From assembly GCA_022653675.1 (NCBI GenBank), contig JALCST010000002.1, positions 62,001-126,000 of the forward strand: a stretch of DNA of 64,000 nucleotides. The letters are read 5' to 3'. The notes under the pieces are model-generated. The model worked only from the letters and a program-made list of their open reading frames with translations, was not told where the DNA came from and did no database searches. The position numbers and the translations under genes were made by a program. The stretch is from Bacteroidales bacterium (GTDB taxonomy: Bacteria; Bacteroidota; Bacteroidia; Bacteroidales; UBA932). Of the stretch, positions 1 to 41,018 are shown in pieces. Every line of letters starts with the position of its first letter. Positions within the stretch are counted from its first letter, which is position 1.

Positions 1-483
1 GATTGTTCGTATGCCTACCTTTTCAGAAAAAACAACAAACAGATCGATACTTCCATAATAGAGAAATCATTCGAAGGTCTGACGGATTTCGATAATCGTT
101 TCTTCAAATACGTGGAAGAAAAATCCGTAATTGTCAAGAGTCCCGGAAAAGATGGGAGGATGACCGCCTCTCTGGTAGATGATCAAGGCAAAAGCATACT
201 TGCCCCTCCGGCCGAAGGAAACGGTTCCGGAGTCAATGACAGACCTAAAAACACTGATGAGCAAATTCTGGCATATGTAAAAAAGGAGTTGAATGGAAGG
301 ACTCTCTACTCATTGACCCGTAATGAAATAGATGATATGATCGGCAAATTGTTAACCGAGACATGGGCAAACTATCGCCAAATCTCATCGGCACTTGCAG
401 TAAGTTATCACCACGTATGCGACTTTGCAAAAATGAGAGCGCAGCACTTTCTTCCCAAATCACATATACTCAAAGACTTGTAG
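1..483 (+). CDS. REP-associated tyrosine transposase (Y1/IS200-like), C-terminal part, truncated by window edge
   Basis: Frame 1 is open from base 1 (DCSYAYLFRKNNKQIDTSIIEKSFEGLTDFDNRFFKYVEEKSV...). It aligns with the C-terminal half of the 38422-39294 protein (WCSWNYHFRNTNRLIDTTMVDS... and NTDEQIL.Y..K.LN....YALT). Confidence 0.8.
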   Translation, partial: DCSYAYLFRKNNKQIDTSIIEKSFEGLTDFDNRFFKYVEEKSVIVKSPGKDGRMTASLVDDQGKSILAPPAEGNGSGVNDRPKNTDEQILAYVKKELNGRTLYSLTRNEIDDMIGKLLTETWANYRQISSALAVSYHHVCDFAKMRAQHFLPKSHILKDL

Positions 484-907
484 AAATGCCACCTCCCTGT
501 TTCAGGGTCGCGGCTCAGCCGTAAAGCGCTGGCCACAAGTGGAATGAAAGAAAACTGCTGCGCTCAATACTCTTTCCCTAGCCTCCTCCCATGGCAGACC
601 CCAAAAGAGCGCAGCACTTTCTTCCCAAATCGCATATAATCAAAGACTTGTAGAGATATCACCTCCCTGTTTCAGGATCGTGGCTCAGCCGTAAAGCACT
701 GACCACAAGCCGAATGAAAGAAAACTGCGGCGCTCAATACTCTTTCCCTAGCCTCCTCCCATGGCAACCGCAAAAAGAGCGCAGCACTTTCTTCCCAAAT
801 CGCATATACTCAAAGACTTGTAGAGATATCACCTCCCTGTTTCAGGGTCGCGGCTCAGCCGTAAAGCGCTGGCCACAAGCCGAATGAAAGAAAACTGCTG
901 CGCTCAA
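436..907. repeat. 2.8-copy direct repeat, 170-bp period; each ~129-bp unit bounded by inverted ends GAGCGCAGCA...TGCTGCGCTC (REP/BIME-like array)
   Basis: Copies start at 436, 606 and 776. Right ends at ~565, ~735 and ~905. Internal CGGCTcAGCCG hairpin. Units 1 and 3 have perfect 10-bp TIRs; unit 2 has one mismatch. Confidence 0.9.
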
Positions 908-37565: not shown

Positions 37566-37670
37566 CCCCGTAGCCACGCAGACTTCCGACCCGGGCTTCC
37601 AACCCAGGCTTCCAGCCCGTCACTTTTTCCCGTAGTCAGCTCTATACCATTCTCATACACCAATCACAGC

Positions 37671-37785
37671 AGGTGTATCTATATTATTCACCATACATCA
37701 TCCACACCAGGCGTATCTACACTATTCTCCATACATCATCCACACCAAGCGAATACACACTATTCACCAGTCAACACAGGCGTAC
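37671..37785. repeat. Degenerate tandem repeat, ~38-bp period (38/38/31)
   Basis: aggtgtatctatattattcaccatacatcatccacacc / aggcgtatctacactattctccatacatcatccacacc / aagcgaatacacactattcaccagtcaacac. Confidence 0.75.
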
Positions 37786-37907
37786 CAATACATTCTGTCA
37801 CCGACTTTTTACCACAAAAGGATAAATATTATCCATCTCAAACTGATCAACATCATTTACCGTACGTGCACCAACACATATGTATCATAAATCATATATC
37901 CCTATCC

Positions 37908-38060
37908 AATTCATCGTAGGTAATTTGGGTAAAACAGCCCTGCAAACACCTCAGTGACCGATTAATGGATCACCATATATCTAACTGAAAGCAAAACGGA
38001 GCTCACTGCGAATGCAATACACTGACTATCAACAGTAATACCCAATTTACCTACGATGAA
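37908..38060. repeat. REP/BIME-like unit A (class I), TIR TTCATCGTAGGTAATTTGGGTA...TACCCAATTTACCTACGATGAA
   Basis: ~22-bp terminal inverted repeats; near-identical to unit D. Confidence 0.9.
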
Positions 38061-38101
38061 AAGTCCGAACGTTTCCTAAAACCCAAATTCACCGAACCCA
38101 G

Positions 38102-38253
38102 ATTCACCGTAGGTAAATCTGGCAAACAGGCCCTACGCATATCCCAGTCACCGATCCCCCGACTCAAATTCCTCTTTCTATAATATCGACCCATATCAAA
38201 AACAGCTTAACACATTGACTATCAACAACAGTACCCAATTTACCTACGATAAA
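38102..38253. repeat. REP/BIME-like unit B (class II)
   Basis: TTCACCGTAGGTAAATCTGGC...GTACCCAATTTACCTACGAT; similar to unit C. Confidence 0.88.
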
Positions 38254-38421
38254 TAAAGCTTGCCTACTTCACCAGTAAAAATACCCTGCGTTGATATCAA
38301 AATTCTTATGATAAAGAATTGAAATTCGCGAAAAAGATAAATATTTTTCAGAAATCGATATTTCTACTTTCCTGACTTGATGGTCTAATAATAGACTGTT
38401 TCCTTTGCTGCAAAAATCCAT

Positions 38422-39294
38422 ATGAAAACCGAGCGAAGCGAATCACGGCCACAAGAAGGATTCTTCGGGATCACCATATCTTCAAATTATCAGACTGCCA
38501 TTTTCAGAGCAGAAGAGGAAAGGCGGGAATTTCTCGAAATTCTCTTCGAATATGCCGGACGGTATGATGGAAAAGTGACCGATTTCGCTGAACTTGACAC
38601 ACATATACATATCGGAGTATATGCAAAAACTCTTTCCAAAATGATGGGCACGATTATCAGGGTCTTTTCCATGAAATACAATGCACGGCATCAGAAAGGA
38701 GGAAGAATCTTCAGATCCCCTTTCTCGAGTTTCACGATTTCTTCTGATAAACAAATGCTCGATTATACATATTATATCATGTATAATCCTATTGCCGCAG
38801 GCATTTGTTCTCACCCGAAAGATTACAGGTGGTGTTCCTGGAATTACCATTTCAGGAACACCAATAGACTTATTGATACCACTATGGTCGACTCGATGTT
38901 CCTGGATATGAAGGCTTTCGAGAAGGGATTCTGGCAATATTGCGATCTAAGGTCACGTTGCAGGAAAGAACGCGGAGAAGACAACCGATGGAAAAATGTT
39001 TCCATTGACAATCCTGCCGGCGATCCTCCGACGGAACTGGGTACGGGATACAGAAAAGGATGTAATATCGGCAATACCGATGAACAAATCCTGATATATC
39101 TTTCCAAAATATTGAACGAAAAAGAAGTCTATGCTCTCACCGCCGCCGAAGCCGACCAATATGCATTCCGCCTGTTTCGGGAAACCTATGCTACAATACG
39201 TCAAGTCAGTACAGCCTTAGCTATGACTCGGGATCATGCACATTATCTTTATAAAAAACTCCGCACAGAACATTTTCCAACCACAATGGAGTGA
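38422..39294 (+). CDS. REP-associated tyrosine transposase (RAYT; Y1 HUH nuclease), intact
   Basis: HUH motif DTHIHIGVYA; YYIMYNPIAAGICSHPKDYRWCSW (Tyr/NP.rAG region); C-terminal HTH-like extension shared with the 1-483 fragment. Confidence 0.9.
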   Translation: MKTERSESRPQEGFFGITISSNYQTAIFRAEEERREFLEILFEYAGRYDGKVTDFAELDTHIHIGVYAKTLSKMMGTIIRVFSMKYNARHQKGGRIFRSPFSSFTISSDKQMLDYTYYIMYNPIAAGICSHPKDYRWCSWNYHFRNTNRLIDTTMVDSMFLDMKAFEKGFWQYCDLRSRCRKERGEDNRWKNVSIDNPAGDPPTELGTGYRKGCNIGNTDEQILIYLSKILNEKEVYALTAAEADQYAFRLFRETYATIRQVSTALAMTRDHAHYLYKKLRTEHFPTTME

Positions 39295-39523
39295 CACCAG
39301 TAATCACTATTTCTACAAAGTATACCGATAACCATTCAACATCGACTATCCACATCAAGTAAATAGCAGTAAATCAATGTGCAAAACCAAAGCCATAATA
39401 TTGCAGACGGATCAGCACAATTCGCTGCCGACGGATCAACCTCATTTACATTACAGTAGGTACACCAAAACCTATGCACCAGAAATCACACACCCCTATT
39501 GAACCAATACCATGGATCAACCC

Positions 39524-39675
39524 AATTCACCGTAGGTAAATCTGGCAAACAGGCCCCACAAATATCCCAAACGCCGATTCCATGATTTAAATTCCTCTTT
39601 CTATAATATCGACCCACGTCAAGAATTACTTAACTTATTGATTATCAATTATAGTACCCAATTTACCTACGATGA
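39524..39675. repeat. REP/BIME-like unit C (class II)
   Basis: TTCACCGTAGGTAAATCTGGC...GTACCCAATTTACCTACGATGAA. Confidence 0.88.
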
Positions 39676-39700
39676 AAAGTCCGAACGGCCCATGAAACCA

Positions 39701-39853
39701 AATTCATCGTAGGTAATTTGGGTAAAACAGCCCTGCAAACACCTCAGTGACCGATTAATGGATTACCATATATCTAACTGAAAACAAAACGGAGCTCACT
39801 GCTAATGCAATACACTGACTATCAACAGCAGTGCCCAATTTACCTACGATAAA
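39701..39853. repeat. REP/BIME-like unit D (class I)
   Basis: Near-identical to unit A over ~150 bp, including gtaaaacagccctgcaaacacctcagtgaccgattaatgga. Confidence 0.9.
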
Positions 39854-39868
39854 AACAAGCAGTCTCGT

Positions 39869-39886
39869 TTTTTACCTACGATGAAA
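39869..39886. repeat. Solitary right-end of the same REP TIR, overlapping the lgt stop codon
   Basis: TTTTTACCTACGATGAAA; lgt TAG lies in the complement of CTACGATGAA. Confidence 0.75.
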
Positions 39887-41018
39887 TCGGGTGGGCGTAA
39901 TGAGTCTCGTTATTCTTCTTCGGGGCAGGATGCTTCGCATTGGTCTGGTCCGAACCACGCGAGTCTTCTGAACCACGCAAACTCCCGGAACGGCCTGAAC
40001 GATCACCACTTCCAGAACGGCCCGAACGACCGGAACCTCCCGAACGGCCCCCATTGCCCGAACGGCCGGAACCTCCGGAATGACCCAAACGATCATCATT
40101 TCCGGAATAACCGGAACGACCCAAACCGGAAGAACGACCCGAAACTCCCGAATGACCCGGGCCGGAAGAACCCGAAATCCCTGCGGCATCGGAGTCCTCT
40201 TTCAATGTAGCAGGCCGCTTGTAAACGAAGGAAAGCACCAAAATCACTATACCTGCCAAGATGAACGGAATCGAAAGCAACTGCCCCATATTGAGATGCA
40301 TGTTCTGCTCGAAAGCTTCCTGCGGTTCCTTTATGTACTCGATTAGGAACCTCATGCCGAACAGGACTATGAGGAATATTCCGAAGATCTCGCCCTTGTA
40401 AAGCTTCTTAAGTTTGTAACGGTAAGCCCACAGCAAGCTGAGACCCAAGATAAGATAACTGAGCGACTCGTAAATCTGGGTAGGATGTTTTGCTATGGTC
40501 TCGCCGCGGCGGACGAATATGAATCCCCATGGCAAATTGGTAGGATTCCCATAGATTTCCGAATTCATCAGGTTGCCGAGGCGTATGAACGCCCCTGCGA
40601 AGCAAATCGTTATGACAAGCCTGTCGAGAACCCACATCATATCGAACCCGTTTTTCCTGCCGTACTTGTACGAATACCACCAAATCGCAAGCAAAACACC
40701 GATAGCCCCTCCGTGTGAAGCCAGGCCTCCTTTCCATACGTACAGGATTTCGAGCGGATGCGCTAGAAAGTAATCCGGTTCGTAGAACAGGCAATGCCCT
40801 AGGCGTGCCCCCACTATGGTACCAATGAGCAATGCATAAAGCAACGGATCCAGAAGTTTAATATCCAAGCCTTCGCGTTTGTAATACCACTTGAAAATGA
40901 AATAGCCGAGTATGAATCCCGAAATAAATAACAGGCTGTACCAGCGAATCGGCAATTTTCCGAGATGTAAAATAACCGGATTCACATTCCAAGTAATGGC
41001 AAGAAGATGTTCAAACAT
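39876..41018 (-). CDS. lgt: Phosphatidylglycerol:prolipoprotein diacylglyceryl transferase with ~100-aa Gly/Ser/Arg-rich C-terminal tail
   Basis: GARLGHCLFYEP, SHGGAIGVLLA, RLGNLMNSEIYG, HPTQIYESL; tail SGRSGNGGRSGGSGRSGRSGSGDRSGRSG. Confidence 0.94.
   Translation of the reverse strand: MFEHLLAITWNVNPVILHLGKLPIRWYSLLFISGFILGYFIFKWYYKREGLDIKLLDPLLYALLIGTIVGARLGHCLFYEPDYFLAHPLEILYVWKGGLASHGGAIGVLLAIWWYSYKYGRKNGFDMMWVLDRLVITICFAGAFIRLGNLMNSEIYGNPTNLPWGFIFVRRGETIAKHPTQIYESLSYLILGLSLLWAYRYKLKKLYKGEIFGIFLIVLFGMRFLIEYIKEPQEAFEQNMHLNMGQLLSIPFILAGIVILVLSFVYKRPATLKEDSDAAGISGSSGPGHSGVSGRSSGLGRSGYSGNDDRLGHSGGSGRSGNGGRSGGSGRSGRSGSGDRSGRSGSLRGSEDSRGSDQTNAKHPAPKKNNETHYAHPISS
39949..40190. repeat. Minisatellite-like degenerate repeat (cccgaacgg/ccggaacgac units) encoding the lgt tail
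   Basis: Recurring CCGGAACG / CCCGAACGG / CTCCCGAA words on the plus strand. Confidence 0.75.

Follow-up and report, generated by a model that had tools for sequence, protein, structure and literature searches.

RAYT1, a Y1/HUH endonuclease encoded in the 64,000-nt stretch analyzed here (the window; G000:C2:62001-126000), is likely to be a single-copy and probably domesticated enzyme whose cognate substrates are the 151-bp units of a repeat family that we call F1. Such units would be non-autonomous REPIN/TIR-like elements, each with two inverted recognition ends of ~22 nt and a drifting ~107-bp interior of fixed length. Together with a sister gene (RAYT2) and a second family (F2), this is best filed as a REPIN/TIRtron-like system with a group-1-like RAYT, which is a known kind of system, though one that lies outside the canonical REP definition. 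In fact, the system works like a REPtron or TIRtron in having one RAYT for each of the two repeat families, with each family also dispersed without the gene.

To begin with the protein, the initial annotation had described an intact Y1/HUH transposase with HIH and YIMYNP motifs, and we find both (the former as THIH) in a 290-residue open reading frame (ORF) that has smpB on one side and lgt on the other. Here, the HuH histidines are His61 and His63, the catalytic tyrosine in the Y...NP motif is Tyr118, and a phenylalanine (Phe97) takes the position where most RAYTs have a tryptophan. These four residues, along with Asn122 and Pro123, are common to 18 aligned family relatives, with His61, His63, Tyr118, Asn122, and Pro123 being invariant. 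Matches to profile models fall below their cut-offs, as seen for NCBIfam REP_Tyr_transpos (NF047646; E=3e-12, 46.5 bits against an 80-bit cut-off) and PF01797 (22.2 bits, just under the cut-off of 23). A search of solved structures by sequence gave only E=0.59 for 4ER8, E. coli RayT with a bound REP hairpin, but the relationship is clear by fold: the AlphaFold model of RAYT1 (pLDDT 82) has 4ER8 as its top PDB match in Foldseek (E=2.2e-5, TM 0.67 by target), followed by IS200/IS605 transposases. The HuH motif, the tyrosine, and the TnpA_REP-like fold place RAYT1 in the RAYT branch of the Y1/HUH (IS200-like) fold. Moreover, a C-terminal block (RQIASxTHESY) is conserved across RAYT1 and the 18 relatives and is predicted to be helical with a pLDDT above 85. 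In the model, this helical region appears to resemble a helix-turn-helix, and Pfam searches returned only weak, single-member helix-turn-helix matches. RAYT1 is present once in the host genome, along with one diverged paralogue (RAYT2; 38% identity), and no truncated RAYT copies were seen in the host genome search. We rejected an IS200/IS605 insertion sequence as the identity of RAYT1, as this needs multiple near-identical transposase copies within ends. Close relatives of RAYT1 were found neither among GTDB species genomes nor among viral contigs.

As for the repeats at this locus (Table 1), the four terminal-inverted-repeat-bounded units of ~150 bp claimed earlier around RAYT1 are all present and carry ~22-nt inverted termini, though their length is corrected to exactly 151 bp. 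When up to three mismatches are allowed, the end motif matches at 21 places in the window, compared with 7.9 expected from shuffles, and the nine matches with no or one mismatch are all confined to 37910-39885. Two further repeats were noticed nearby, these being a 38-bp tandem repeat in three copies in the gap from smpB to the first F1 unit (37654-37776), and a run of 9-bp repeats (39876-40200) that gives the minus-strand lgt gene a low-complexity G/S/R C-terminal extension of ~110 residues.

Table 1. Repeat units and genes at the RAYT1 and RAYT2 loci, numbered from the first nucleotide of the window.
Feature	Position	Strand	Remark
RAYT2, 3' part	1..483	+	full gene G000:C2:61563-62483, start upstream of window
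F2 unit, 129 bp	437..565	+	overlaps RAYT2 3' end and supplies its last codons
F2 unit, 129 bp	607..735	+	near RAYT2
F2 unit, 129 bp	777..905	+	near RAYT2
F1 unit A, 151 bp	37910..38060	+	left of RAYT1
F1 unit B, 151 bp	38103..38253	+	left of RAYT1; 63% identical to A
RAYT1, Y1/HUH transposase, 290 aa	38422..39294	+	intact ORF with THIH and YIMYNP
F1 unit B', 151 bp	39526..39676	+	right of RAYT1; 84% identical to B
F1 unit A', 151 bp	39703..39853	+	26 bp after B'; 95% identical to A
Solo F1 end	39872..39885	-	overlaps lgt stop codon
lgt gene	39876..41018	-	stop codon inside solo F1 end

Searching the whole host assembly (2.18 Mb, 23 contigs, 85.8% complete) for the F1 end motif TTYAYCGTAGGTAA at one or no mismatch gave 88 places, while a reversed-pattern control gave one. 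From these ends, 36 complete units could be assembled, with the rest being solo or chimeric ends, and the expectation in the initial annotation of copies elsewhere in the genome was thereby borne out. With any facing end pair up to 400 bp apart being allowed, 34 of the units measure 151 bp and two measure 150 bp. The units are non-coding, dispersed without a RAYT gene, and mostly intergenic. Between tandem neighbors the spacer is 26 bp in 16 cases and 27 bp in four, with single cases of 25, 42, 85, and 185 bp. Left and right ends can be told apart because they differ at fixed positions; positions 23-24 of the ends are conserved, yet never palindromic. A 16-base exact pattern of the F1 end, when sought in 119 genomes, gave only single chance-like matches outside of the host. 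No F1 DNA was found in plasmids, and a search of Rfam returned no match.

The near-fixed length of the units goes together with a freely drifting interior. Pairwise identity between F1 interiors ranges from 35 to 99%, and pairs below 50% still average 0.44 in register as compared with 0.21-0.29 when shifted by 1 to 5 bp in either direction. Low-identity interiors scoring far higher in register are therefore homologous and gap-free, and a MAFFT alignment of 15 diverse F1 units likewise fills 151 columns with no gaps. By FastTree estimate, whose branch lengths are rough, F1 interiors have accumulated ~673 inferred substitutions with two length changes, and F2 interiors ~355 with none. In contrast, the F2-F1 linkers in the same clusters, albeit a small control, show at least three indels in ~125 substitutions (Fisher p=0.011), and over all F1/F2 clusters linker length spans 7 to 195 bp. 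About half of the interior substitutions lie on tip branches (~494, with two length changes), and since length changes are scarce there as well, the constraint appears to persist after insertion. Judged from these sequence comparisons, something probably measures the length of the repeat, and near-invariant length alongside a drifting interior suggests that geometry constrains either processing or a cellular function.

Upstream in the window, RAYT2 has its own repeats. F2 is a palindromic family distinct from F1, with ends of the form GAGCGCAGC[AT][CG]TTT, and all 19 units within the regions examined, including those adjacent to RAYT2, are exactly 129 bp. The interiors of the F2 units at RAYT2 are only weakly similar to those of dispersed F2 units. 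Only F1 flanks RAYT1 and only F2 flanks RAYT2, and so each transposase probably serves its own family, a pairing drawn from proximity in a single genome. Elsewhere, dispersed F1 and F2 units adjoin one another in mosaic clusters, most of which are located between convergent ORFs, and the genes beside these clusters are unrelated (M23/LysM peptidase, VCA0040-like, FtsX, histidine kinase, UxaC, MFS, MatE, and AAA). A third palindromic family, F3 (GTCGAACCTCCGGTTTGG..., ~92 bp), has 17 matches in the host genome, in which no RAYT for it was found. F1 half-units fused to F3-type sequence were observed at C3:183410, C10:68554, C10:81927, C11:81647, and C12:5328 (L046, L043, L048, L049, and L047). 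We also noticed paralogous genes for small lipoprotein-like proteins (165-175 residues, SCDP.....PPYVGIWYVRND) between palindrome clusters (L043:2843-3340, L043:3409-3933, and L045:3185-3712), which were possibly duplicated by recombination between such clusters. With two sister RAYTs and two separate families in one genome, partner specificity becomes testable.

Phylogenetically, RAYT1 and RAYT2 are sisters (support 100/97) within a Bacteroidales clade (100/99), and a further branch (99/97) parts this clade and the 2.1-type sequences from the 2.6-type Bacteroidales RAYTs and E. coli RayT. In this 65-row tree, for which subclasses 2.3, 2.4, 2.5, and 2.7 were left out and the 2.1-like rows were picked by motif, the RAYT1/RAYT2 clade thus appears to group with RAYT subclass 2.1 (Bertels group 1). 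For members of subclass 2.1, the published description includes a C-terminal helix-turn-helix and an absence of REP-like sequences (PMC6006769), although the latter trait does not hold here, given F1 at RAYT1 and F2 at RAYT2. Across the clade, a strong palindromic unit (80-220 bp, pairing at 15 or more of 16 arm bases, no more than 700 bp from the RAYT) accompanies 12 of 25 loci as compared with 8 of 200 control window pairs; by the same criterion, it is found at 12 of 54 2.1-type loci. The relatives have palindromic families of their own (~110-150 bp), the end sequences of which change from locus to locus. In the complete genome of Bacteroidales bacterium CF (CP006772), for instance, the motif GTGGCACTGATTTTTCT occurs 79 times (control 0), and in four related genomes it has no occurrence. 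The CF units vary from 46 to 165 bp (mode 120-121), and strict length is therefore not a trait of the whole clade; it is an unusual feature of the present system, peculiar to the host genome. A sibling genome (~90% identical) shares a second CF family and the orthologous RAYT that goes with it. Most comparable elements of CF and this sibling are held in common, one copy being damaged and one locus rearranged, and over ~1.06 Mb we found no precise insertion, empty site, or excision. Slow turnover is published for REPINs as well (PMC8049555). A 1.2-kb stretch of CF, comprising a gene and one element, is absent from the sibling, whose own element stands at about the same place (L266 versus L315); this difference may be a deletion between elements.

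Turning to the ends themselves, the initial annotation had read the locus as a RAYT with its cognate REP family and a GTAG at the hairpin foot. The RAYT-type protein and the genome-wide, mostly intergenic family stand, but the GTAG-foot REP is not supported. Nearly every F1 end carries GTAG unchanged, and E. coli RayT, to which the fold of RAYT1 is similar, requires GTAG 5' of its hairpin (PMC8266576), so that a canonical GTAG REP/BIME system, with each end a REP hairpin cleaved by RAYT1 under guidance of the GTAG at its foot, deserves to be weighed. A canonical REP is a local stem-loop of 20-50 nt preceded by GT[AG]G. In F1, however, the tetranucleotide is base-paired as part of the unit-long arm and also overlaps the GTA center of a partial local palindrome (TTYAYC-GTA-GGTAAA), rather than forming a single-stranded foot, and the uninterrupted local stem is at most 3 bp in most ends. 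GTAG is also missing from F2, F3, and the end motifs of most relatives, and neither E. coli RayT nor the 2.6 type groups with the RAYT1 lineage, all of which makes the canonical reading improbable. A related model, in which each end forms a local REP hairpin around a 3-nt loop, was set aside, as it fits the consensus ends of several families but not most real F1 ends. When folded as ssDNA, whole units do outperform shuffles (mean z -3.2 for F1 and -4.9 for F2), whereas the interiors alone do not (z -0.3 and -0.6, respectively), and for this reason a structured-RNA reading of the units was discarded. The F1 arms are conserved as sequence, with 14 of 22 pairs never varying, and covariation among the variable pairs does not exceed that in shuffles, which leaves hairpin formation hypothetical. 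The structural layout of a REPIN, namely two inverted conserved ends plus a spacer with the capacity for an ssDNA hairpin, is nevertheless what F1 displays in its 34 units of 151 bp.

Alternatively, the units could be host-functional elements, such as the transcription-end, nucleoid, or gyrase sites reported for BIMEs, and be kept by host selection, with the RAYT a passenger or past source that no longer moves them. In its favor are the location of many clusters between convergent genes, the shortage of length changes even on tip branches, and the sites that sibling genomes mostly share. Yet each of the two families centers on its own RAYT, and family ends are particular to one lineage, with complete replacement from one related genome to the next, which a conserved host function would not show. 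No Rfam match was obtained either; we regard host function as rather unlikely. Less probable still, and the least so of the explanations considered, is that the units are MITE-like remnants of a composite element, with the RAYT and its flanking TIR units moving as one TIRtron. Both A- and B-type units do occur on either side of RAYT1, as in published TIRtrons (PMC3733652), but there is one RAYT1 with one diverged paralogue and no truncated copy in the genome, and the units are dispersed without the gene.

For F1 units as cognate substrates of RAYT1, we infer mobility, cleavage, and a length filter as follows. Once a unit becomes single-stranded, its ends would anneal, and the RAYT, acting through Tyr118, would cleave and join it so that a copy arises elsewhere at a low rate. 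The C-terminal region of the RAYT might assist in end recognition, and a unit would be a good substrate only if its two ends lie the correct distance apart. Tandem copies most likely come from replication slippage or unequal recombination of a unit plus its 26/27-bp spacer. Taken further, and offered tentatively as a possibility that we think more doubtful than probable, a RAYT lineage long regarded as REP-less would be driving two-ended mobile units whose end-to-end distance is gauged with nearly single-base precision (151 and 129 bp), the interior sequence being irrelevant, and Y1 transposition would then involve a length ruler. RAYTs of the group-1-like type (subclass 2.1) occur widely, and the Bacteroidales clade gives clear repeat partners to RAYTs of this kind, reported to have none. 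The clade also shows fast replacement of cognate families between related genomes.

With regard to known systems, the units were initially thought to be unlike REPs on account of their length; they are indeed longer (151 and 129 bp), though inverted REP pairs (REPINs/BIMEs) at spacings of 71-110 bp (71 and 110 bp in P. fluorescens SBW25; PMC3116915), as well as TIR families beside RAYT-like genes (TIRtrons; PMC3733652), had already been published. As in the REPtrons of SBW25 (PMC3116915) and E. coli (PMC8266576), a RAYT present once lies among its own clustered repeats, the repeats consist of inverted ends around a variable interior at a favored spacing, tandem arrays take in flanking sequence, and the location is mostly intergenic. 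Differently from the REPtron, the F1 and F2 ends lack a GTAG foot and a stable local hairpin, the longer units have a near-absolute length, and the RAYT1 clade is another RAYT lineage, whose C-terminal region is long. Subclass 2.6 (Bertels group 5) shares a Bacteroidetes host, and its RAYT genes are published as lying beside atypical, genome-repeated secondary structures (PMC6006769). However, its members are of ~180 residues with WQ and YIH[QN]NP, while the RAYT1 clade spans 250-410 residues with F at the W position and mostly YIL.NP (in RAYT1 itself, 290 residues, Phe97, and YIMYNP), and a supported branch separates the two. TIRYTs, most of which fall in subclass 2.1 (PMC6006769, PMC3733652), are likewise RAYT-like Y1 proteins with a C-terminal extension, whose genes are flanked by long inverted repeats forming moderately abundant families, and the TIR overlap with the gene 3' end has its counterpart at RAYT2. 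In contrast to TIRtrons, F1 and F2 lack the GGGGWSAS motif and are amplified in mosaic clusters as two-ended elements of fixed length, and the Bacteroidales clade is distinct from the proteobacterial 2.1.1 type. Near the genes of several proteobacterial 2.1-type RAYTs (L138, L145, L147, L161, L164, L173, and L178), we observed GGGGTCA-containing inverted repeats measuring 81-168 bp across, which agree with the published TIRYT membership of subclass 2.1 and with the GGGGWSAS TIR motif.
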